Of a stretch of DNA of 64,000 bases, positions 4,546-18,583 are shown piece after piece. The translations under genes were made by a program, and so were the position numbers. Position 1 is the first letter of the stretch. Every line of letters begins with the position of its first letter. The notes under the pieces were generated by a model. That model saw only the letters and a program-made list of their open reading frames with translations. It did not search any database and was not told where the DNA came from. This DNA is from Paramicrobacterium agarici (GTDB taxonomy: Bacteria; Actinomycetota; Actinomycetes; Actinomycetales; Microbacteriaceae): NCBI RefSeq assembly GCF_002563955.1, contig NZ_PDJE01000001.1, forward strand, positions 2,232,001 to 2,296,000. The letters run 5' to 3'.

Positions 4546-5253
4546 TCAGCGCGCCCGCTGCGGTCGAACCTTGAACGGGTCGACGCCTTTCGGGATGGGC
4601 AGCTGGTTGTTCAAGGAGCCAAGGCGATTCGTTACCGCGAGAACTTCTGCCTTCGTCAGTTCGCGCTTGACCTTGCGCATGGACTTGGCGAGCTTGTACA
4701 GAGGAATCGAGTTTTCATCGGGGCCGACGTGGAACACAGAGATCGGCACGTTGGGGAGCACGCGCTTGACCTTGCGCCGCTCGTCTTCAAGCATCTTCTT
4801 TGTGCGAGACGCAGGACCTTCCGCGACGAGTGCGACGCCACCGCGGCCGACGGCGCGGTAGATGGCGTCTTGCGTGCGCCCATTAACGTTTACCGGCATT
4901 TCGCTTCCCGCCCAGCCTCGAGGAAGAGAGCTCTTGAACACCGCGCCAACGGCACCTGCCTGGCCGCTGATCTGGCCGTATGCCGCACGTTCCGCGCGAC
5001 GTCCCAGAATGATCATGGCGACAAGCAGCCCTGCGAGCACGCCCGCGAGAATCCACATGATCATCATAAAGACGTTTCCGCCAGCCAGGAACACGGCGAG
5101 CAGTACGCCAGCGGCGACGGGGAGCACGAAGCCCAGCAGCATCCACCATTGCGCCATGGAGTCGTAGCGGCGCGTCATCTGGAAGACCTGCCACATCTGC
5201 TTCAGGCGACCGGGTTCCTTTGGTGCTTTCGCGCGCTTTGACTCTCGTGCCAT
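4546..5253 (-). CDS. DUF4191 domain-containing membrane protein
   Basis: A 235-residue conserved actinobacterial protein of unknown function. Its basic N-terminus (MARESKRAKAPKEPGRLKQM) precedes two membrane helices at roughly residues 38-57 and 62-84. A long cytoplasmic tail rich in Lys/Arg (KKMLEDERRKVKRVLP) follows. DUF4191 genes lie next to glnA and lipA in many actinobacteria, although lipA is not here. TATCCT (5261-5266 on the minus strand) sits 7 nt upstream of the ATG, so the mRNA may be leaderless. Confidence 0.88.
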   Translation of the reverse strand: MARESKRAKAPKEPGRLKQMWQVFQMTRRYDSMAQWWMLLGFVLPVAAGVLLAVFLAGGNVFMMIMWILAGVLAGLLVAMIILGRRAERAAYGQISGQAGAVGAVFKSSLPRGWAGSEMPVNVNGRTQDAIYRAVGRGGVALVAEGPASRTKKMLEDERRKVKRVLPNVPISVFHVGPDENSIPLYKLAKSMRKVKRELTKAEVLAVTNRLGSLNNQLPIPKGVDPFKVRPQRAR

Positions 5254-5405
5254 GACATCAAGGATACGTCACCGCGCATGCTGGTTTCTCCGCCCGCTAC
5301 CGGTCTCCGATGTTTCTTTCGCCCACAGCGGACAGTTTGCACGCGCTATGCACAGCGGGCACGTGCTTCGGTCTGATTGCAGTGCAGACGGGGCACACTC
5401 GTCTC

Positions 5406-6786
5406 ATGACACGATCTGACACGACCGAGGCGAACCTGACCCAGCGTTCCGTGTCCCATGACGACGTCGTCTGCGGTTTTCGTGTGCTTCGTCGATTGCA
5501 CACGGGGGAGCGGACACACGCATTCCTGGCCAGTGATGCGCAGAGCAGGCACGTTGTTCTTCGAGTCTTTCTCGGCTCTGAAGGTCCTGCACGCTCGCGT
5601 GAGGAACTCGAGCTCGCGGCACGCGTCGCTAACGATCACGTGCAGTCCGCCGACGATGTCGGTGCTGCCGCGCTTGACGAGCCCGTTCTCGTGTGCGAAC
5701 GACTGGGACGACGGCTCAGTGAGTTGCTCGAGAACGCCGGATTTGTCGCTGCCGGCTCAATCGTGACGCTCGCAGCACCCCTCGCGTCAGCGTTGAAGGA
5801 GCTTCATTTCGCCGGTATCGCACATGGATCCGTGGATGTCGCCCATGTGCGATTCGCCGGAGACGGGCGTCCTGTGCTTGTCGGTGCAGACGGAGGTCTG
5901 CCCGCGACCCCCGGCAACGATCAAGGCCGACCTGGAGGGACTCGCGTATGTCGTCGCCTCTGCGCTGCACCACAGCGATGAGCGAACACGTTCCCAGGGG
6001 GCGTCCCAGGTCACGTCGTGGCTGCAGGATCAATGCTCGGGGCCCGAGAAGCCACCAGGCGAACTGTACGACGATCTCGAGTGCCGCATCTTTGCGCTCG
6101 CCCCGCCTCTGCCTTTCGCCGTCGGCCGTGAAGCGACGTCCAACGAGTATCACGGTGAGGGGCGTCGTTCACGTCAACTGCGCGAACGGCACCGTGACAG
6201 CACGCTGTCCGCGCTTCTCGAGGGGGAGCTGTCATTCTCACTACCCGCTGCCGTTGCGGTGCTGCGCCGTATCCGCGAAGGGATGCGGGCGAGGAGCAGA
6301 GCGGCAAGGCTCGCGGGCGTGGCGGCTCTGGTCTTCGTGGTCTGCCTGGTCGGTGCCTTCTTGCTCCTGCCGCAATCGACGTCAGCGCGTGAACCCGCGC
6401 ACGGCACCCCTGTGCGAACGACTGCGCCGGCCGCCGTCGTCCCTGCCGCCTCTCCGGATCTGCCACCAATCGATGCTCTCGACGCACTTCTCGATGCTCG
6501 CACCGAGTGTCGCCATTCCGCGCAGGTTTCGACATGTCTTGGCGAGCTGTATGAGCCCGATTCTCCCGCGCTCGACGCAGACCTGTCAGCGGCCGAATCT
6601 CACAAGGCTGATCCGTTTCCCACCCTCAGCCTCCCGGCCACCGCCCGCACGTATTCGAAGCCCGAGACGAGTGGCGGAGCTGTCGTAGTCACGATCGGCG
6701 ACGCGCAGAGCACGCAAAAGCCGGTCTCCGTCCTCATGATCAGGACGGAGACCGGCTGGCTGCTTCGCGACGTGTTCGCCGTTTAG
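5406..6786 (+). pseudogene. Frameshifted pseudokinase-like membrane protein gene
   Basis: Two overlapping frames make one protein if a single base is skipped at the C5 run at 5908-5912. Frame one (from ATG 5406) encodes a kinase-like fold: FRVLRRLHTGE resembles the glycine loop and IAHGSVDVAHVRF replaces the HRDxxxxN catalytic loop. DFG is replaced by VGADGG, so this is a pseudokinase. Frame two resumes at ATIKADLEGL and continues to 6786. It has one membrane helix (LAGVAALVFVVCLVGAFLLL) and an extracytoplasmic domain with two cysteines that looks like a small SnoaL/NTF2-type fold. Without the shift the first frame ends at 5981 after unrelated residues. It could be a true inactivating mutation or a sequencing error in a homopolymer. 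Its 3' end contains the terminator of the convergent E2 gene. Confidence 0.7.
6715..6757 (-). terminator. Intrinsic terminator of the E2 acyltransferase gene
   Basis: A perfect 16-bp stem (6719-6734 with 6742-6757) and a 7-nt loop, followed on the minus strand by a short T-run. It lies 25-70 bases past the stop of the leftward E2 gene. It falls inside the last codons of the convergent pseudokinase-like gene. Confidence 0.85.
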
Positions 6787-8213
6787 AGACCGAGCTGACC
6801 TTCGAAATCCTCGGTTTCCAGCGCATTCGTCATGGACGCGAGGAACCTCGACGCGTCCGTGCTGTCGATGATGCGCTGGTCATACGAGAGAGACAGGTAG
6901 ACGACGGACCGAATGGCGATTGCGTCAGTCCCCGCAGAGTCGACGACAACCGCGCGCTTCGACACTGCACCGACGCTGAGCGCGGCAGACTGCGGCAGAA
7001 ACACCAGTGGCGTCTCGATGAGCGTGCCACGAGCGTCCGAGCTCGCGATCGTGAACGTTCCGCCAGACAGCTCGTCTGGCTTCAAGCTGTTCGACCGGGT
7101 GCGTTCTGCGAGGTCGTCAATTGCCGCGGCAAGTCCGGCGACGTCAAGCGACGACGCGTTCTTGACCACGGGGCTGAGCAGGCCACGATCGGTGTCAACA
7201 GCAACGCTCAGGTTCTCGTCCGACGGGTACACAATCTGGTCCCCGTCGACGGTCGCGTTGATGACGGGCTGCTCCTGCAGCGCTTGAATCGCCGCCTTTG
7301 CAATGAACGGCAGGATCTCGAGGGCTTTGCCCGTCTTCTTTGTGAACGCGTCCTGCACCCGATCGACGAGCTGCGTCACAGTTGTGATGTCGGCCTCGAT
7401 GACCGTCGTCACCTGCGCGGTTGCCTGACGCGACGAGACCGCCTGTTCGGCGGCGACCTTGCGCAGACGCGTCATCGGCTGCGTCGTGCCGCGCAACTCG
7501 GAGACAGTGGCAGGAGCTGGAGTTTTCGCGGACGACGTGTCATTGCGCGACGCAGCCTCGAGGACGTCCTCCTTGCGAATGCGTCCGCCCACGCCCGTTC
7601 CCTCGACTGTAGAGAGGTCGACGCTGTGCTGGTTGGCCAGGCGCCGCACGAGGGGCGTCACGTAACCCGCATTGCCAGAGACGTCAGCGGACTCCTGCTG
7701 CGAGGATGCGGTGTCGGCTTCGCTCTGGGACGACGACGATGTTTCTGCGCCACGCTGTGTGGAGGACTCAGCGGAAGCCGGCTCGGACTCCGCCTGTTCT
7801 GAATCGGTGTCACCGCCCTGGTCATCAGATTCGTCGGACGATTCACCGCTCGAGGAGGCCGGCGGCTGCGCTGGCGACTCTTCTTCTGCTTCGGGCTCCG
7901 GCTCGGGAGCTTGAGACTCTGGCTCGCTTTCCTGAGCCTCCGGCTCCGCTGGAGCATCAGAGCCGCTGGTTCCTGAGCCGTCGCCGACCTTCGCGAGTGG
8001 CGCACCAACGTCGATTGTGTCGTCTTCTTGAGCGAGGATCTCCTCAAGGACACCCGCTACAGGCGACGGGATCTCCGTGTCGACTTTGTCGGTTGACACC
8101 TCGAGAAGCGGCTCGTCGACGTCGACGTGATCGCCCACGCTTTTCAGCCAGCGGGTGACCGTTCCTTCAGTGACACTCTCGCCGAGTGCCGGAAGGTTCA
8201 CCGTTTCGCTCAT
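6783..8213 (-). CDS. sucB: 2-oxoacid dehydrogenase E2, dihydrolipoamide acyltransferase (variant catalytic motif)
   Basis: E2 transfers the acyl group from lipoyl-lysine to CoA in a 2-oxoacid dehydrogenase complex. The 476 residues comprise one N-terminal lipoyl domain (lipoylated lysine in STDKVDTE, about residue 43), an unusually acidic Glu/Ser/Asp linker (about 80-180), a peripheral subunit-binding domain (YVTPLVRRLANQHSVDL...GGRIRKEDV) and a catalytic domain (about 245-476). The usual DHRxxDG active-site motif reads DQRIIDS, with Gln446 at the histidine position. Substrate cannot be assigned from sequence; sucB is the usual label for this neighbourhood. The E3 gene lpdA lies 44 bp upstream in the same direction, so the two are probably co-transcribed. 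E1 is outside the window. Confidence 0.85.
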   Translation of the reverse strand: MSETVNLPALGESVTEGTVTRWLKSVGDHVDVDEPLLEVSTDKVDTEIPSPVAGVLEEILAQEDDTIDVGAPLAKVGDGSGTSGSDAPAEPEAQESEPESQAPEPEPEAEEESPAQPPASSSGESSDESDDQGGDTDSEQAESEPASAESSTQRGAETSSSSQSEADTASSQQESADVSGNAGYVTPLVRRLANQHSVDLSTVEGTGVGGRIRKEDVLEAASRNDTSSAKTPAPATVSELRGTTQPMTRLRKVAAEQAVSSRQATAQVTTVIEADITTVTQLVDRVQDAFTKKTGKALEILPFIAKAAIQALQEQPVINATVDGDQIVYPSDENLSVAVDTDRGLLSPVVKNASSLDVAGLAAAIDDLAERTRSNSLKPDELSGGTFTIASSDARGTLIETPLVFLPQSAALSVGAVSKRAVVVDSAGTDAIAIRSVVYLSLSYDQRIIDSTDASRFLASMTNALETEDFEGQLGL

Positions 8214-8257
8214 GACCTAGTCTCCTTTGAAAGCAATTCGTACTCCTAGCGTACCGA

Positions 8258-9631
8258 TCAGAGAGCGTGAAGCGGCTTGCCCGCGAGCGCGAGGAATGCT
8301 TCGCCGAGGGCCTCGTTCTGCGTGGGGTGGGCGTGGATGAGAGGCGCGACGTCCTCCGGGTATGCCTCCCAGTTCACCGCGAGCTGAGCTTCTGCGATGA
8401 GTTCGCCGACGCGTGCACCGATCATGTGAACACCGACAACAGGCCCGTCGTTGACACGCACGACCTTGATGAGGCCGCTCGTGTCGATGATCTCGCTCTT
8501 GCCGTTGCCTGCGAGGTTGTAGTCGTACGCCGTGATCTTGTCGTCGCCGTACTCTTCCTTTGCCTTCGCCTCCGTGAGTCCGACCGATGCGACCTCCGGG
8601 TCACAGTAGGTGACCTTGGGAATGCTCGAGTCGGGAATGATGACAGGATTCTGGCCGGCGATCTCTTCAGCGACGAAGATTCCCTGCTGGAACCCGCGGT
8701 GTGCGAGCTGAAGGCCCGGGACGATATCTCCGACGGCGTACACGCCCGTGACGTTCGTCTCGAGACGATCGTTCGTGAGCACGAACCCGCGGTCCATCTC
8801 GACACCGACCTCGTCGTATCCGAGGCCTTCCGTCACGGGGCCGCGACCCACCGCGACGAGGAGCAGGTCCGCGTCGATCGTCTCGTCGTTCTCGAGCGTG
8901 ACGTGAACGCCGTTGTCGTTTTGCTCAACGTCTTTGAACTTGACACCAATCTTGTAGTCGATGCCACGACGGCGGAACTGGCGCTCCAGCAGCTTACTAA
9001 TCGTCTCGTCTTCGTTCGGTACGAGGTGCGGGAGTCCTTCGATAATTGTCACCTCGGCCCCGAACGAACGCCACACACTGGCAAACTCGACGCCGATGAC
9101 GCCTCCGCCGAGAACAGCGACCTTCTCGGGCACGTAGTCGAGCTGCAGCGCCTGCTCACTCGTGATCACGCGGCCGCCGATCTCAAGCCCAGGAAGCGAG
9201 CGGCTGTATGACCCCGTGGCGAGAATGATATTCTTGCCCGTCACCGTCGTGTCACCGACCTGCACCGTCGTCGGGGACGTCAGGCGTCCCTCGCCCTCGA
9301 TGGTCGTGATCTTGCGAGCCTTGACGAGGCCCTGAAGCCCCTTGTACTTCTTCGCGACAATTCCCTCGCGGTACTTCGTCACTCCCTCAATGTCGATTCC
9401 ATCGAGTGACGTCTTCACTCCGAACTTTGCGGAGTCGCGTGCGTAGTCAGCAACTTCGGCGGCGTGCAAAAGGGCCTTCGTTGGGATGCACCCGCGGTGG
9501 AGGCATGTGCCGCCGACCTTGTCCTTTTCGATCAGCGCGACAGAGAAGCCGAGCTCGCTCGCTCGGAGCGCCGCTGCGTATCCGCCACTTCCGCCGCCGA
9601 GTACGACGATGTCAAAATTCTGCTCCGACAC
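8258..9631 (-). CDS. lpdA: Dihydrolipoyl dehydrogenase (E3)
   Basis: The FAD/NAD-dependent E3 subunit reoxidises dihydrolipoamide in 2-oxoacid dehydrogenase complexes. The N-terminus has the FAD-binding VLGGGSGGYAAA motif. The redox disulfide is in GGTCLHRGCIPTK (CxxxxC). A second dinucleotide fold (AVLGGGVIGVEFA) and the C-terminal HAHPTQNEALGE histidine-glutamate pair complete the family pattern. The frame stays open well upstream, but GTG at 9631 is preferred: the protein (457 residues) then begins just before the FAD fold, and a GGGAG ribosome site lies 8 nt before it. The E2 gene follows after a 44-bp gap. Confidence 0.97.
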   Translation of the reverse strand: MSEQNFDIVVLGGGSGGYAAALRASELGFSVALIEKDKVGGTCLHRGCIPTKALLHAAEVADYARDSAKFGVKTSLDGIDIEGVTKYREGIVAKKYKGLQGLVKARKITTIEGEGRLTSPTTVQVGDTTVTGKNIILATGSYSRSLPGLEIGGRVITSEQALQLDYVPEKVAVLGGGVIGVEFASVWRSFGAEVTIIEGLPHLVPNEDETISKLLERQFRRRGIDYKIGVKFKDVEQNDNGVHVTLENDETIDADLLLVAVGRGPVTEGLGYDEVGVEMDRGFVLTNDRLETNVTGVYAVGDIVPGLQLAHRGFQQGIFVAEEIAGQNPVIIPDSSIPKVTYCDPEVASVGLTEAKAKEEYGDDKITAYDYNLAGNGKSEIIDTSGLIKVVRVNDGPVVGVHMIGARVGELIAEAQLAVNWEAYPEDVAPLIHAHPTQNEALGEAFLALAGKPLHAL

Positions 9632-9729
9632 TGAGCTTCTCCCTTTGCCGATTGTTGATGCGGTTTCGATCGTCCGCCGGTGTGCAGCAAGCGACCGTTC
9701 GGTTGCGCTGAAGCGCCTCTTCGACCTTA

Positions 9730-11208
9730 CTACGCAGCGGCCTGCTGTTCGGCTAGCGCAAGGAGGGTTCGCACCGTCACGCCGGTCGCGCCCTTTCCGT
9801 TGTATCCGTATGTCGCCGACCCGTTGTCCCCGGGACCGGCGATGTCGAGGTGCACCCACGAAATCTGCTCGTCTGAGCCCTCACGTGTGCCCACGAACTC
9901 GGCCAGGAAGTGGCCAGCGAGAAGCATCCCGCCCTCTCGCCGTGACAGGTTGGCGTTCACGAGATCCGCGACGTCGGAGTCGAGGTTTGCGCGAAGCTCG
10001 CTCGGGAGCGGCATCCGCCAGAATTTCTCACCAATGCTGTCGGCAAGGGCGACGACATCTGAGGCGCGCTCGTCGTTACCCATCACTCCTGTGTAGCGCT
10101 TACCGAGAGCGATCACGGCTGCGCCCGTCAGGGTTGCCACATCGACGATCAGGTCGGGCTGCTCTTCGCTCGCAACAGCGAGTCCGTCGGCCATGACGAG
10201 GCGTCCCTCGGCGTCGGTGTTCGTGACCTCGACCGTGCGTCCGCCGTACATCTTCAGAACGTCGCCGGGACGCGTCGCGGACCCGGACGGCATATTCTCG
10301 GCAAGGCACAGCCAGGCCGTCATGCGCGTCTTAATGCCGATGCGGGCCGCGGCGGTGATCGTTGCGAGAGCGGTCGCGGCGCCGAGCATGTCGTACTTCA
10401 TGCCCATCATGCCGTTCGCGGGCTTGAGCGAGAGCCCACCCGTGTCGAAGGTGATCCCTTTGCCCACAAGAGCGATGTGTGAAGTCGCACCATCGGGCGC
10501 GTACTCAAGCTTGACCAGGCGCGGTCCGTGAACCGATCCACGACCGACCCCGAGGATTCCTCCGAAACCGCCTGCTTCGAGCTTCGGAACGTCCCACACC
10601 GTCACGTCGATCGGGAGCTCCGAAGCCGAGTCCACGGCGGCGTCTGCGAAAACCTCTGGTGTCAGCTCCGACGCCGAGGTGTTCCCGAGGTCACGAACCA
10701 GGTGTACAGCGCGAGCAGTCTCGAGCACGCGCTTCGCTTCGTCATCGGAAAGCGGCTCTGGCGCAACGATCGTCACGGACTCCACAGCGGTCTTACGCTC
10801 GCTCAGCCCCTTCTCGCGGGTGTAGCTGTATGCCCCAATCGCCGCTCCTTCTGCGACGGCCACCACGTCGGCGTGGGCGCTCAGACCAAGAGCCAATCGA
10901 ACGGATGCTGTTCCAGCAAGCTGCCTGACCGCGGAACCGGCAGCCGCACGAAGCGTCTCGGGCGTCACCTCGCGTCCGATTCCGATAACGGCGACGACGG
11001 TCGACGGCGCGTCGGGAAGGATGACCCTCGCGAAAGAATCAGGCGAACCGGTCACACCGAGCTGCGTCAGAACCTCTTCCAGGCTCTCGAAGCCGGGTGC
11101 TGCATGGAGTCGGGGGCCGTCTTTTGTGGAGACGGCGCCGACCACCGTGACGTCTGCGGCGGAGTGACCCGCGGAATCCGATACGAAGTCAAGCGAGATT
11201 GTGCTCAT
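9730..11208 (-). CDS. pepA: Leucyl aminopeptidase (M17)
   Basis: Cytoplasmic dimetal exopeptidase that removes N-terminal residues, especially leucine, during peptide turnover. The 492-residue length is normal. The catalytic domain shows GKGITFDTGGLSLKP (metal-binding Lys and Asp) and the family signature NTDAEGRL, with a downstream LTGAAVIALG segment. The N-terminal macro-like domain (about residues 1-170) is more divergent. The ATG start is supported by the divergent promoter region shared with the PAC2 gene (84 bp). It lies upstream of lpdA with a 98-bp gap, so it may have a separate transcript. Confidence 0.95.
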   Translation of the reverse strand: MSTISLDFVSDSAGHSAADVTVVGAVSTKDGPRLHAAPGFESLEEVLTQLGVTGSPDSFARVILPDAPSTVVAVIGIGREVTPETLRAAAGSAVRQLAGTASVRLALGLSAHADVVAVAEGAAIGAYSYTREKGLSERKTAVESVTIVAPEPLSDDEAKRVLETARAVHLVRDLGNTSASELTPEVFADAAVDSASELPIDVTVWDVPKLEAGGFGGILGVGRGSVHGPRLVKLEYAPDGATSHIALVGKGITFDTGGLSLKPANGMMGMKYDMLGAATALATITAAARIGIKTRMTAWLCLAENMPSGSATRPGDVLKMYGGRTVEVTNTDAEGRLVMADGLAVASEEQPDLIVDVATLTGAAVIALGKRYTGVMGNDERASDVVALADSIGEKFWRMPLPSELRANLDSDVADLVNANLSRREGGMLLAGHFLAEFVGTREGSDEQISWVHLDIAGPGDNGSATYGYNGKGATGVTVRTLLALAEQQAAA

Positions 11209-11280
11209 CCCCTCATGCTATCGGCGCGTGCGTTCGCTCTGGGCGCGACGAAAGAGAGCCCTGGCGCGCCGACGCGCGAA

Positions 11281-11286
11281 TAGCAT
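11281..11286 (+). promoter_or_regulatory. -10 box (TAGCAT) of a leaderless PAC2 transcript
   Basis: TAGCAT ends 6 nt before ATG 11293. The GGAGG at 11287-11291 is only 1 nt from the ATG, too close to act as a ribosome site. Confidence 0.5.
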
Positions 11287-11292
11287 GGAGGT

Positions 11293-12210
11293 ATGAGCAT
11301 CCCTGAAGACCTCGTGCGTTTCACGGAGTCGGCGTCAGCCGTCCCCGAGGGGCTTCCGCTGGTCATCGGTCTGACCGGGTTTGCCGACGCCGGCAGCACG
11401 ATCGCTCAAGCGGTCACCTACTTGCGCGACAGCCTGAGCTATGAAGACGTCGCGATATTCGACAACGATGCGCTGCTGGACTATCGAGCGCGTCGTCCCA
11501 TCATCCAGTTCGAGCACGATCATCTCACCGACTACGAACCGGCCCGGCTCGCTCTGTCGCTGGCGTACGACGAGCTGCACCGGCCTTTCCTGCTGCTCAC
11601 GGGCTACGAGCCGGACTTTCGGTGGGAAGCATTCACACAGACCATCGTCAGTCTCGTCGAGAAGTTCAAGGTCACTCACACGACGTGGGTTCACGGCATC
11701 CCGATGCCGGTTCCGCATACGCGACCGCTTGGTGCCGCGGTGAGTGGCAATCGTGAGGAGCTCATCGACGCCCTCTCAATCTGGCGTCCGACGACGCAGG
11801 TTCCCGCGAATGTCCTGCACGTGCTCGAGTACCGGCTTCAGCAGGCGGATCACGCTGTCGCGGGGTTCGCGCTCCTGGTGCCGCACTACCTGACCGAGAC
11901 GGAGTATCCCGCTGCCGCCCTCACAGCGCTTGAACTCTACAGCGCGGCTTCCGGACTTGTGTTCCCGAGCGACGAGCTGCGCGAAGACGGCCGCCAGTTC
12001 GTCGCGCGAGTGGATGAACAGGTCGCCGAGAACGGCGAGCTGAACAAACTCGTGTCGTCCCTTGAAACGCGGTACGACACCTATATGGAGGGCACCGAGC
12101 AGAGGCCGCCGCTCACCATGGATGAACAGGATCTGCCGTCTGCCGATGACATCGCGGCGGAGCTTGAGCGCTATCTTGCGGGAAGGCGCCCGACCGACGG
12201 CGATGCGTGA
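11293..12210 (+). CDS. PAC2 family protein
   Basis: A 305-residue cytoplasmic protein of the PAC2 (proteasome-assembly-chaperone-like) family, common in actinobacteria including those without a proteasome. The N-terminus (LPLVIGLTGFADAGSTIAQAV) carries the family's glycine-rich start, and LLLTGYEPDFRWEAF is the conserved core strand-turn. The acidic C-terminal tail (about 250-305) is probably helical. Function is not established; family membership is clear. The gene diverges from pepA and is followed 34 bp later by the MFS gene. Confidence 0.88.
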   Translation: MSIPEDLVRFTESASAVPEGLPLVIGLTGFADAGSTIAQAVTYLRDSLSYEDVAIFDNDALLDYRARRPIIQFEHDHLTDYEPARLALSLAYDELHRPFLLLTGYEPDFRWEAFTQTIVSLVEKFKVTHTTWVHGIPMPVPHTRPLGAAVSGNREELIDALSIWRPTTQVPANVLHVLEYRLQQADHAVAGFALLVPHYLTETEYPAAALTALELYSAASGLVFPSDELREDGRQFVARVDEQVAENGELNKLVSSLETRYDTYMEGTEQRPPLTMDEQDLPSADDIAAELERYLAGRRPTDGDA

Positions 12211-15067: not shown

Positions 15068-15769
15068 ATGGCCGCGGAGGCAAACGAAGGCAAGGCGCTC
15101 GAAACGACCGTTGACGGCATCAGCTACCAGCGGATACCGGTAAAGACGCGCCTCGTCGGTCCTGATGATGACATCGTGGAGGTCGTGACGACGTTCGCGC
15201 GCGAGCACATCGTCGACGGCGATATCGTCTTCGTCACAGAGAAGATCGTAGCGATCACGCAGGGCAGGGCCTACCCGGTCAATTCCATCAAGACACGGCC
15301 GCTTGCCCGTTTCCTCTCGAAGTACGTCACCAAAACGTCGTACGGGATCGGTCTCGGCATGCCCGAGACAATGGAGATGGCTCTTCGCGAGTGCGGAACA
15401 CCGCGCATTATGTTTGCCGCGGCCGTCTCCGTCGTATCCAAGCTGCTCGGCCGATCGGGCGATTTCTACCGCATCGCGGGGGAGAAGGCGCGCGCCATCG
15501 ACGGCCCGACCCGACACACGATACCGCCGTACAATTCGCACGTCGTACTCGGACCGGAGCGCCCAGACGACGTTGCCAACGAGCTCAAGACGGCACTTGG
15601 CGGGCGGGTCGATGTCATGGTCGTCGACATCAACGACCTCGGCGGAAACATCCTCGGCAACACTCTCGGTCACAGCAAGGATGACCACATGGTTCGCGTG
15701 CTGAAAGACAACCCACTCGGTCAGAAGCACCAGAGCACGCCTATTGGCATCATCCGCACGATCGCGTAG
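15068..15769 (+). CDS. Coenzyme F420-0:L-glutamate ligase-like protein (CofE family)
   Basis: A 233-residue protein of the CofE/F420_ligase family, whose best-known members use GTP to add glutamate to F420-0. Supporting segments are the N-terminal DDIVEVVTTFAREHIVDGDIVFVTEKIVAITQGR, split here at residues 30-65, the PYNSHVVLGP segment and VVDINDLGGNILGNTLGHS near residue 190. No other F420 biosynthesis gene is visible, so the substrate may differ. A purine-rich ribosome site (GAAAGG) precedes the ATG. It lies 38 bp after sigA and is followed by a strong terminator. Proximity to an ATP-grasp gene and split racemase hints at an amide-ligation role. Confidence 0.8.
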   Translation: MAAEANEGKALETTVDGISYQRIPVKTRLVGPDDDIVEVVTTFAREHIVDGDIVFVTEKIVAITQGRAYPVNSIKTRPLARFLSKYVTKTSYGIGLGMPETMEMALRECGTPRIMFAAAVSVVSKLLGRSGDFYRIAGEKARAIDGPTRHTIPPYNSHVVLGPERPDDVANELKTALGGRVDVMVVDINDLGGNILGNTLGHSKDDHMVRVLKDNPLGQKHQSTPIGIIRTIA

Positions 15770-15831: not shown

Positions 15832-16869
15832 TCAGAAACCGATGATGCTCTGAAACCGCGGTCGGCTTCCCGTGCGGATGCCCGTGACACTCGGCTTGTT
15901 CTCGTAGACGCCGGCAGCCCAGTTTCCCTCAACGAGAACCGGCCCCTCCTCGCTCATCACGATGTCCCATCCGATGTACCTCATATCGGGAACCACGCGA
16001 GCGACGTCGTCGAAGAACGGCTGCACGGTCTCGACGAGCGGCAACTCGAAGTCGGGAATCGAGACGCCCGATTCAGGATGCGTGGCATGCACATTGTCAT
16101 GCGAGTCGTATCCGCGGCCCATCGACTTCCCGTCGAGGCTCAGCATTGTGTAGAAGCCGCCGAACGTCTGCTGGTCGCTCGCCTGCCCGCGCCCGAACTT
16201 CTGCGCCATCGAGAGAATATGCGTCTTCTCGCCGTCAAAATAGGTAGTGACACGGGTCGTGTTCGCTGTCCCGGCACACACGGCGGCAAGTGTCGGATGC
16301 TGCTGGATGACCTCTTCGAGCAAGAACTGTCCTTCATCGAGCAGTCGCGTGCGAAACCCCTCCCAGTCCGTCACGTCGTCTGCAGTGTGGCGGTGCACTC
16401 CGTGCCCGGCACTGCTGAACGGCACCTTCCCGATGACCGTGCCCGCACGCTGCACGAAGTCGCGAACCTCATCGACTGACGCCTCGCGCACATCGAGCCA
16501 CTGCCGCTTAAGAAACGCGTTGAAGACCTTGTTGAATTCGATCTTGTCGTGGAAGATCCCGCGGTGCGCCTCGGCGTCATGCTCCATCGCGATGTGATTC
16601 GAAATGGAGTGCGTCATGAACGTCTCGCGCTCAGCACGACTCAGAATCGCGTAGTCCCAATCCACGTAGTCCTGAAAAGCCGTCTGGCGGAATGCGGCAG
16701 ACCACAGCATGTCGACCATGATGACCGGCAGCGCCTTGTGATGCTGCGCCGAAACGTCCTTCGCACGCTCGACGAGGGAAGAGATATCGATGCGCCGCGC
16801 ACGATTCTTAATGTAGTCGAGGCGGATCTTGAGGCGATTTGCCTTCGGCATGGCGCGGGGCACTCCCAT
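15832..16869 (-). CDS. Sugar-transfer-associated ATP-grasp protein
   Basis: A 345-residue protein resembling the ATPgrasp_ST family, proposed in the literature to ligate amino acids or similar groups during cell-surface polysaccharide synthesis. The N-terminal 60 residues are basic and helical. The ATP-grasp core is suggested by GKVPFSSAGHGVH (nucleotide-binding loop), FLLEEVIQQHP, and the C-terminal metal-binding acidic segment YIGWDIVMSEEGPVLVEGNW. The ATG at 16869 has no ribosome site; the in-frame ATG at 16851 has GGGAG about 11 nt upstream and may be the real start. A TATAAT at 16892-16897 (minus) lies just upstream. The gene diverges from the split alanine racemase pair. Confidence 0.75.
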   Translation of the reverse strand: MGVPRAMPKANRLKIRLDYIKNRARRIDISSLVERAKDVSAQHHKALPVIMVDMLWSAAFRQTAFQDYVDWDYAILSRAERETFMTHSISNHIAMEHDAEAHRGIFHDKIEFNKVFNAFLKRQWLDVREASVDEVRDFVQRAGTVIGKVPFSSAGHGVHRHTADDVTDWEGFRTRLLDEGQFLLEEVIQQHPTLAAVCAGTANTTRVTTYFDGEKTHILSMAQKFGRGQASDQQTFGGFYTMLSLDGKSMGRGYDSHDNVHATHPESGVSIPDFELPLVETVQPFFDDVARVVPDMRYIGWDIVMSEEGPVLVEGNWAAGVYENKPSVTGIRTGSRPRFQSIIGF

Positions 16870-16970: not shown

Positions 16971-17516
16971 GTGGTCTTGTTGACGTCTGAGTCTCAGACA
17001 GCCGGCACTCGTGTTCTGCACCTCTCTTCGGCGCAGCTCGCTCGTGTCTCCAGAGCTTTAGACGGCGACGAGGCAGCTGCCGCCGAGTTCGATTCGGCGC
17101 TGTCGTCAGATCCAGTCCGGCTGCTCGTCGAGGTGCTTTCGACGAAGTCTGTGCCCGCGGGGTCAGGGGTGTCGTACGGACACACCTTCGTCACGCAGCA
17201 TCCCACTGTGCTCGCACGTGTGGCGATCGGGTATGGCCATGGCCTGCCGCGCAAGGCGGGGAATCGTGCATGGGTCACGTGGTCTGCCGCCGGAGGGCCT
17301 GCGGTGCGGCTGCCGATCGTCGGACGCGTTGCGATGGACGAATTCGTCGTGGATGTCGGCAGGACTCCGGTCGAACCAGGACAGCTCATGTGCGTATTCG
17401 GAGATTCCGATGAGGGCGAGGTACCCCTGGGTGACTGGGCCGCCGCGATCGGGGAGTCTCCGGTGTCAGTCATCGCCTGCCTCGACCGGCGAGTGACGAG
17501 GAGCGTCGTCGAATGA
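16971..17516 (+). CDS. Stand-alone alanine racemase C-terminal domain protein
   Basis: A 181-residue protein whose last ~135 residues are an alanine racemase C-terminal domain without the PLP barrel. Visible family segments are VPAGSGVSYGHTF (catalytic-tyrosine motif; Tyr69), AIGYGHGLPRKAG, and GRVAMDEFVVDVG (the CMD substrate loop, here AMD). The first ~45 residues match nothing I recognise. GTG 16971 has GGAGG only 3 nt upstream, so TTG 16977 (9-nt spacing) may be the real start. It overlaps the next gene by ATGA, so the two are translationally coupled. In canonical racemases this tyrosine acts on the partner subunit's active site; the downstream protein has lost it. Confidence 0.88.
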   Translation: MVLLTSESQTAGTRVLHLSSAQLARVSRALDGDEAAAAEFDSALSSDPVRLLVEVLSTKSVPAGSGVSYGHTFVTQHPTVLARVAIGYGHGLPRKAGNRAWVTWSAAGGPAVRLPIVGRVAMDEFVVDVGRTPVEPGQLMCVFGDSDEGEVPLGDWAAAIGESPVSVIACLDRRVTRSVVE

Positions 17517-18583
17517 CCGCCAGTGTGCGCGCACGCGCGGTCATCTCGCGCCGTGCTCTCGTCGATAATGCTCGACGCGTCGCCGAGCGCGTCGCCCCTG
17601 CGCAGCTCGCGATCGTCGTCAAGGACGACGCCTACGCGCATGGCGTACCTGAGGTCGTCTCGACGCTCATCGCAGCCGGATTCCATCGTTTCGGCGCCCT
17701 CGATCTCACGACCGCGCTCACCGTTCGCGAGCTTGCGCCTGACAGCATGATCTTCACCTGGGTGTTCGGCGAGCACGACGATCTCGACGTCGCTCTCAGG
17801 GAACGGCTCGATCTTGGCGTTTCGTACCCGTCGATGCTCGAGCGGGTCGCCGAATCAGCAAAGCGCACGGGACAGCGTGCAACTGTGCACCTCAAGATCG
17901 ATACAGGGCTGCATCGCGCCGGCGTTCTCGCCGACACGTGGCCGCGTTTCGTCGCACGCGCAGCCGAGTTGCAGAAGGCGGGCGCGATCGATGTCACAGG
18001 CATCTGGACGCACATCGCCGAAGCCTCGTACGAGCGCGACAGCGCGGCAATCCTGCGCTTTGAGCAGGCGATCCAGATTGCCCAGGAGGCGGGACTTCAC
18101 CCTCGCGTGCGTCACCTTGCGGCAAGCGCTGCATCGTTCGAACGTGCGGACGCCCGCTTCGACATGGTGCGCGTCGGCGCGTTCGTGTACGGCATCGCTC
18201 CCGGCGACGGCATCGGACCTCACGAGCTCGGGCTGACTCCCGCCTTGACGCTCTCGACCACGGTCACGCACATCGAGCGGGCCAACGGCCGTTCACACGC
18301 GCAGATACCCATCGGGCACGTGCACGGTCTCTACAGCGACGCCGTGAACGGTGTCACGGTGGCCGTGCGCGGGGAGCGCTTCCCGATCGTCAGCGTCGAC
18401 CGCACGATGGCGCGCATCGACGTCACGGGATCGTCCATTGCGACCGGCGACGCTGTTCACCTGTTCGGCGACGGCGCACACGGCGAGGACTCGCTGCAGG
18501 TGTGGGCTGACGCCATGGGGACGATCGGCGAAGAGGTGGCGATCCGGCTGGCGCGAGCAGCGGAACGCCATTACGTGGACTGA
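17513..18583 (+). CDS. Alanine racemase-like protein with degenerate C-terminal domain
   Basis: A 356-residue PLP enzyme of the alanine racemase fold, expected to interconvert L- and D-amino acids. The barrel is intact: Lys37 in VKDDAYAHG (usual VKANAYGHG), HLKIDTGLHRAG, GIWTHIAEA and RVGAFVYGI (arginine facing the PLP nitrogen). The C-terminal domain (about 240-356) is shortened and altered. The expected VSYG tyrosine segment is replaced by HAQIPIGHVHG, and the CMD loop reads VDRTMARID. A stand-alone C-terminal domain with both segments is encoded immediately upstream. The enzyme may therefore work as a heteromer, use another amino acid, or have lost racemase activity. It is followed by a perfect stem-loop. 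Confidence 0.85.
   Translation: MTASVRARAVISRRALVDNARRVAERVAPAQLAIVVKDDAYAHGVPEVVSTLIAAGFHRFGALDLTTALTVRELAPDSMIFTWVFGEHDDLDVALRERLDLGVSYPSMLERVAESAKRTGQRATVHLKIDTGLHRAGVLADTWPRFVARAAELQKAGAIDVTGIWTHIAEASYERDSAAILRFEQAIQIAQEAGLHPRVRHLAASAASFERADARFDMVRVGAFVYGIAPGDGIGPHELGLTPALTLSTTVTHIERANGRSHAQIPIGHVHGLYSDAVNGVTVAVRGERFPIVSVDRTMARIDVTGSSIATGDAVHLFGDGAHGEDSLQVWADAMGTIGEEVAIRLARAAERHYVD

Follow-up and report, generated by a model that had tools for sequence, protein, structure and literature searches.

A predicted two-subunit racemase in Microbacteriaceae and its putative role in supplying D-diamino acids to group-B peptidoglycan

Can two adjacent genes, each holding part of an alanine racemase, together encode one enzyme? 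The question is raised by a locus of Paramicrobacterium agarici lying in the 64,000-nucleotide stretch of DNA analysed here (the window), where a gene for a small protein, U, is followed by a gene for a large one, D. In databases U and D go under the names 'alanine racemase' or 'alanine racemase C-terminal domain-containing protein'. In known alanine racemases, as described in PMC3485190 and PMC3245724, one monomer contributes Lys39 and Tyr354 to an active site, and its partner contributes Tyr265', Tyr284', Arg290' and Met312'. The original prediction held that U supplies a catalytic tyrosine missing from D, and that the substrate may be altered.

The two proteins

The features of the locus are collected in Table 1. 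The window genome is a single contig of 3.23 Mb with three racemase C-domain matches, namely U, D and a complete alr. The latter, for which the original prediction had proposed a search, lies apart at C1:3141302-3141682 and retains every catalytic residue tested (L181).

Table 1. Coordinates within the window of the U-D genes, their main features and two neighbouring genes
Feature	Position	Strand	Basis
CofE-like gene, context	15068..15769	+	PF01996, 47.6 bits; same place in relatives
ATP-grasp gene (ATPgrasp_ST), context	15832..16869	-	PF14397, 94.2 bits
U, small protein, 181 aa	16971..17516	+	ORF; PF00842 match
Residues 12-30 of U, probably left over from racemase beta-1/alpha-1 and leading straight into the C-domain	17004..17060	+	Structural alignment; graded barrel loss in relatives
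VSYG, catalytic Tyr69 (equivalent of Tyr265')	17169..17180	+	Sequence; alignment of U relatives
GRVAMD loop (equivalents of Met312', Asp313')	17322..17339	+	Sequence; Met in 49/49 eroded U
ATGA start/stop overlap, U/D	17513..17516	+	Sequence; 4-nt overlap common to 61/67 pairs
D, large protein, 356 aa	17513..18583	+	ORF; full PF01168 barrel and shortened C-domain
Lys37, PLP lysine (equivalent of Lys39)	17621..17623	+	Sequence
Approximate site of the missing VSYG segment (about 15 residues) in D	18287..18298	+	Alignment with the genome's own canonical Alr
Glu340 of D at specificity position Tyr354	18530..18532	+	Alignment; Asp/Glu in 66/66 D copies compared

U had been described as a stand-alone racemase C-domain with VSYG at Tyr69, and this description holds: PF00842 is the only family that matches it (99.3 bits, profile positions 4 to 126), VSYG and GRVAMD are present, and the TIGR00492 score is 69.2 bits (cut-off 168). 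V67, S68, Y69 and G70 show no variation across 33 aligned U sequences, and the TINYE motif is gone from U itself. Because AGGAAAG sits just before 16971, the TTG codons at 16977 or 16980 appear likelier starts than 16971; the database entry for U has 178 aa. The AF2 model of U has a mean pLDDT of 92.1 and a pTM of 0.86, and in VIA-align its residues 12 to 180 align with racemase chains, the matched part of each chain beginning close to the N-terminus and stopping close to the C-terminus, so that the first strand and helix seem to survive in the model, with the barrel cut out between them and the C-domain. Barrel loss is graded among U proteins, from 178 down to 0 aligned columns, and the idea that U is a chance fragment of a single genome was dismissed, as barrel-poor or barrel-free U proteins occur in many genera.

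D matches PF01168 in full (163.6 bits), and its match to PF00842 begins only at profile position 33 (44.3 bits). It contains both the VVKDDAYAHG motif, with K37, and RVGAFVYGI, and Lys37 is invariant in 27 aligned D sequences. The claim of an intact PLP barrel combined with the loss of VSYG and of the CMD-type loop was borne out by alignment with the genome's canonical racemase, in which D has neither VSYG nor the GRVAMD loop and has His at the Tyr284 position. The same alignment places the canonical TIN-Y-E opposite TIG-E-E in D, that is, Tyr354 is replaced by Glu340; absent from the earlier account, this is the most telling change in D. Modelled alone, D gives a pLDDT of 92.8 and a pTM of 0.89, and Foldseek places the model closest to 1xfc_B (TMq 0.90).

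The features of the fold-III PLP racemase superfamily are thus in place: the barrel with the PLP lysine and the racemase fold in D, and a C-domain carrying the catalytic Tyr loop. What is not found is Lys39 and Tyr265 on one chain, the Lys being on D only and the Tyr on U only; nor does the window D have the alanine gate, Tyr at 354. Its TIGR00492 score (155.7 bits) is just below the equivalog cut-off of 168. U-D would work like an alanine racemase, yet it lacks traits by which the family is defined: a single chain with both bases, Tyr354 and a sufficient equivalog score.

Residue losses and trees of the paired genes

Adjacent U-D pairs were found across many genera of Microbacteriaceae. In a comparison of 248 genomes of the order, 18 of them from Microbacteriaceae and including the window's own, the best out-of-family match among those listed was a protein of canonical length at 349 bits, versus 487 bits for window D. 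Sixty stretches were fetched, chosen mostly by match score and hence a non-random sample; other loci came from a contig profile search, which gave at least 80 loci, mostly canonical racemases. One profile was then used for 209 racemase sequences: 77 canonical (9 from Microbacteriaceae), 66 U and 66 D. The 66 pairs correspond to 58 of the 60 fetched stretches, one of which has two pairs, plus 7 named loci; the window's own locus is not among them and shows the same state as the eroded ones. L109 and L113, tandem racemase pairs from outside the family, were excluded from the pair counts and placed with the canonical racemases.

The start/stop overlap at ATGA that had been claimed for the window proved to be a general trait: 61 of 67 pairs have an overlap of exactly 4 nt, a count that takes in the full-length tandems and the window's pair and leaves out L109 and L113. 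As for the catalytic residues, U is without Lys39 and D without Tyr265 in 49 of the 66 pairs, both residues are kept in 17 (the full-length tandems), and mixed pairs do not occur (0/66). Every one of the 49 eroded D has K39, Y43, K129, R136, H166, S204 and R219, and Met312 is gone from all of them; every one of the 49 eroded U has Y265, R290 and M312, with Y or F at 284. The residues kept by each protein match the homodimer subunit that supplies them, and for this reason we favour a heterodimer that has a single active site. Loss in the eroded D is partial: of the 49, 22 still have Y or F at 284, 37 have Asp at aligned position 286, 34 have it at 313 and 7 have Arg290; this incomplete loss of C-domain residues, read from the alignment, counts against a clean picture.

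We propose that U and D pair as a fold-III PLP racemase in which each heterodimer would have a single active site. D would give the barrel, the PLP-binding Lys37 and the position-354 residue, and U would give Tyr69 (Tyr265'), Tyr88 (Tyr284'), Arg94 (Arg290') and the AMD loop; the other half-site, composed of the U barrel and the D C-domain loops, would be dead and has presumably been deleted. The pattern of 49 pairs with both residues lost, 17 with both kept and none mixed, the overlap and the separate alr together lend good comparative support to the proposal that the small protein supplies the Tyr, and we consider it very probable that U-D is a heteromeric racemase, its physical pairing and activity being predictions from sequence.

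A barrel tree of 160 sequences places all 66 D (49 eroded, 17 full) in one exclusive clade (support 0.983); support is weak at some inner nodes, falling to 0.27. Of the 66 U, 64 share a clade with 2 outsiders (support 0.881) in the C-domain tree, which has 208 sequences; there the eroded D group together (48/48, support 0.761) and the full-length D do not join them. Full-length D are present in both deep branches of the D clade of the barrel tree, which implies at least two rounds of complementary erosion, provided that barrels are not regained after loss. Rooting by plain parsimony (3 changes) would make the D clade eroded from the start, which is unlikely since the barrel is deleted. The series from full-length tandem to stripped 181-residue subunit shows how a shared-site homodimer can become a heterodimer.

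Several loci have features of their own. In the full-length tandems L172, L176-L179, L184 and L048, Cys or Val replaces the carbamylated lysine (K129) of U, and its residue 313 is Asn. In L166 and L167 (genomes G034 and G109) the full-length D frame continues into what we take to be TsaE (P-loop motif), giving open frames of 952 and 975 residues. L113, from Neoactinobaculum massilliense (8718-11104), has two full-length tandem racemases with Phe and Tyr at 354, unrelated to the pair as far as compared. Several Microbacterium genomes have a further, more distant racemase-like gene of about 220 bits, for example at G631:C5:96264-97304 and G638:C9:173484-174524.

Position 354, gene neighbours and wall chemistry

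According to PMC3485190 and PMC4517790, Tyr354 and Tyr265' form the gate of alanine racemase, and Tyr354 bears on specificity; in lysine-preferring racemases the position is occupied by Thr (Lyr) or Ala (Bar), as given in PMC3485190. All 66 D have an acidic residue there (Asp in 35, Glu in 31). No acidic residue is found among the 77 canonical sequences (Tyr 68, His 6, Phe 1, Asn 1, gap 1) or the 17 full-length U (Tyr 16, Trp 1). The 49 eroded U, in which the position should no longer matter, are mixed (Ala 17, Leu 10, Val 7; acidic 4/49). An acidic residue at 354 suggests, at the level of sequence, a substrate with a cationic side chain. The replacement of Tyr354 by Glu or Asp would open the alanine gate, and we propose that a diamino acid would bind to the new residue through its side-chain ammonium. 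The altered substrate of the original prediction is therefore retained in part: position 354, gene context and published wall chemistry favour it, and its supposed sign, VKDDAYAHG, was discarded, because (A/G)YGHG stands at that site in 23 of 30 D-type rows. A rule by which Glu or Asp at 354 would go with ornithine or diaminobutyrate was weighed and dropped, as too few genomes are named.

Ligase genes lie beside the pair. Among 48 eroded-pair loci, MurT and GatD occur without a CofE-like gene in 27 and a CofE-like gene without MurT in 18; in L145 a CofE-like gene is accompanied by a weak MurT match (1/48), and L140 and L153 have neither in the stretch examined (2/48). The local MurT is divergent (113.6 bits versus an NCBIfam cut-off of 800). 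In L151 and L182 a diaminobutyrate transaminase gene (EctB) directly follows D and is itself followed by ATP-grasp genes; the L151 protein scores 603 bits on TIGR02407 (cut-off 552.2), and the L182 copy was recognised by its similarity to that of L151. In genome G020, EctB adjoins CofE-like and ATP-grasp genes, and no D-type gene was seen there. EctB is above cut-off in 29 of 150 genomes and, at the positions listed, lies beside the ligases only in G057 and G020.

The neighbourhood was rejected as strong evidence by itself, since ligase genes occupy the same place where the pair is missing: the orders hrdB-MurT/GatD-parE and hrdB-CofE/ATP-grasp-parE occur also without it. The same ligase genes lie next to hrdB in 10 stretches whose genomes show no evident pair (L186-L192, L200-L202), as well as in 4 full-length-tandem stretches (L193-L196) and in L203, whose genome (G006) has its pair elsewhere.

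Three observations on arrangement stand apart. Within the hrdB-parE interval, MurT-GatD and CofE-like(/ATP-grasp) genes are alternatives at one place, only L145 having both, with a weak MurT. L182 (genome G225, 4898-12020) contains two U-D pairs in one cluster, separated by the diaminobutyrate transaminase gene and two ATP-grasp genes, and a CofE-like gene lies upstream. Finally, G009, G084 and G118 each have one in-frame TAG inside an ATP-grasp match.

Within Microbacterium, 17 of 119 genomes have a single racemase match, of canonical length in all 7 positions examined (G599, G650, G667, G695, G698, G717 and G718); one genome, G685, is 81% complete and has a weaker racemase match. The CofE-like gene was found in 17/17 pair-less Microbacterium (16 of the 17 with a single match, G685 being left out, plus G354) and in 17/17 genomes with a D-type gene. 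Its presence in pair-bearing and pair-less genomes alike indicates that the ligase stays while the racemase comes and goes. Among named entries, the racemases of the pair-less genomes are nearest those of M. lacticum, M. laevaniformans, M. flavum and M. telephonicum. We take the walls of M. lacticum and M. laevaniformans to contain L-Lys, and presume the same for pair-less Microbacterium through these nearest relatives. M. oxydans carries the U-D pair. Its wall is taken to contain D-Orn from a statement on neighbours of the strains studied (PMC10757982). Lys has also been ascribed to it.

Published descriptions of the walls are as follows: Paramicrobacterium has peptidoglycan of type B2 with D-ornithine, and Microbacterium species have D-Orn, L-Lys or DAB, with D-Orn in M. 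sufflavum (PMC10757982); in Agreia, L-DAB is linked to D-Orn (PMC5945732); D-Orn is given for Homoserinimonas, D-Lys for Frigoribacterium, Lys and Orn for Salinibacterium, and DAB with type B2gamma for Cryobacterium (PMC7033078). Homologues or loci of D or U were found in Paramicrobacterium, M. sufflavum, Agreia, Homoserinimonas, Salinibacterium and one Frigoribacterium strain; D-type homologues appear under the names Agreia and Homoserinimonas, and Frigoribacterium enters through one named strain. Cryobacterium sp. Y11 has no D-type gene, its two racemase matches (L058, L225) both having Tyr354 and Tyr265, and a D-type gene is therefore not needed in every wall of DAB/B2gamma type. A MAG labelled Cryobacterium (G636, L060) has a D-type match next to a C-domain match.

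On this basis the heteromeric racemase would probably make a D-diamino acid for the wall, substrate and role being read from position 354, context and wall type. The Paramicrobacterium enzyme would make D-ornithine, which the neighbouring CofE-like and ATP-grasp ligases would build into an interpeptide bridge at the alpha-carboxyl of D-Glu (type B2), and relatives with the pair would make D-Orn, D-DAB or D-Lys. Group-B peptidoglycan chemistry has been described for decades, and to our knowledge the genes for its D-diamino-acid bridge are not established. In the open-licence literature we found no genes for this bridge, and nothing on a heteromeric or ornithine racemase in these bacteria. The pair and its neighbours are candidate genes for the racemisation and ligation steps.

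Alternative readings and known systems

The pair might instead be a second alanine racemase, spare or regulated, that is heteromeric and still makes D-Ala. Its nearest families are alanine racemases, D approaching the TIGR00492 cut-off (155.7 against 168 bits), and Cryobacterium sp. Y11 manages without a D-type gene. Moreover, G034, G109, G026 and G011 have two racemase matches each, both of them tandem copies; as these are the only racemase matches in those genomes, one copy must make D-Ala there. We nevertheless find this reading unlikely, given the complete separate alr of the window genome and a context and wall chemistry that point to diamino acids. The residues at 354, Asp or Glu in 66/66 D and Tyr in 16 of the 17 full-length U, are also those expected if U remained alanine-specific and D changed.

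That D acts alone or as a homodimer with another base, U being a regulator or the partner of something else such as the canonical Alr, is improbable. AF2 models D well by itself, which speaks for such independence; on the other side, Tyr265 and Met312 are both gone from all 49 eroded D and are exactly those kept by U, and overlap and gene order are conserved in 61 of 67 pairs.

More improbable still is a changed PLP reaction on a diamino compound, such as decarboxylation, epimerisation or aldol cleavage, in place of racemisation of a free amino acid. The change at position 354 could alter the reaction as well as the substrate, and the adjacency of EctB says only that a diamino acid is involved. 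All 66 pairs, however, retain the Lys on D and the Tyr on U, and the closest folds among those listed are racemases.

A decaying, functionless alr duplicate, suggested by the barrel lost from U and the catalytic segment lost from D, is extremely improbable and was set aside as pseudogene decay, because the frames are intact with a conserved overlap, the losses are complementary and not random, and the catalytic loops are invariant across many genera.

We therefore lean, with reserve, towards the joint prediction of a heterodimeric U-D racemase that makes a D-diamino acid, here probably D-ornithine, for the group-B peptidoglycan bridge. The fullest version may equally hold or fail: an obligate heterodimer, widespread in Microbacteriaceae, with a single composite site. 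It would have come from a tandem duplication of alr whose copies eroded in complementary ways, repeatedly so if barrels once lost do not return. Its sole task would be to supply the group-B bridge with D-ornithine, D-diaminobutyrate or D-lysine, and it would be encoded with the bridge ligases.

Among known systems, U-D is like Alr (TIGR00492; PF01168 and PF00842) in its fold and its set of catalytic residues, with Lys and Tyr from different subunits. It differs in that Alr is described as a homodimer with two sites and Tyr354, whereas U-D has two genes, one proposed site and an acidic residue, Glu or Asp, at 354. The lysine-preferring, broad-specificity enzymes Lyr and Bar (4dza, 4dyj), which were absent from our barrel and C-domain trees, are homodimers with Thr or Ala at 354, unlike the window D with its Glu. 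MurT-GatD, the lipid II isoglutaminyl synthase described as amidating peptidoglycan D-Glu in other bacteria, is related to U-D only as a neighbouring gene pair, in 27 of 48 loci and with a divergent local MurT. Complementary dead sites, as proposed for U-D, are also a feature of heteromeric enzymes such as trypanosome deoxyhypusine synthase, whose fold and reaction are unrelated to those of U-D and which consists of paralogous subunits, each without half of the active sites.
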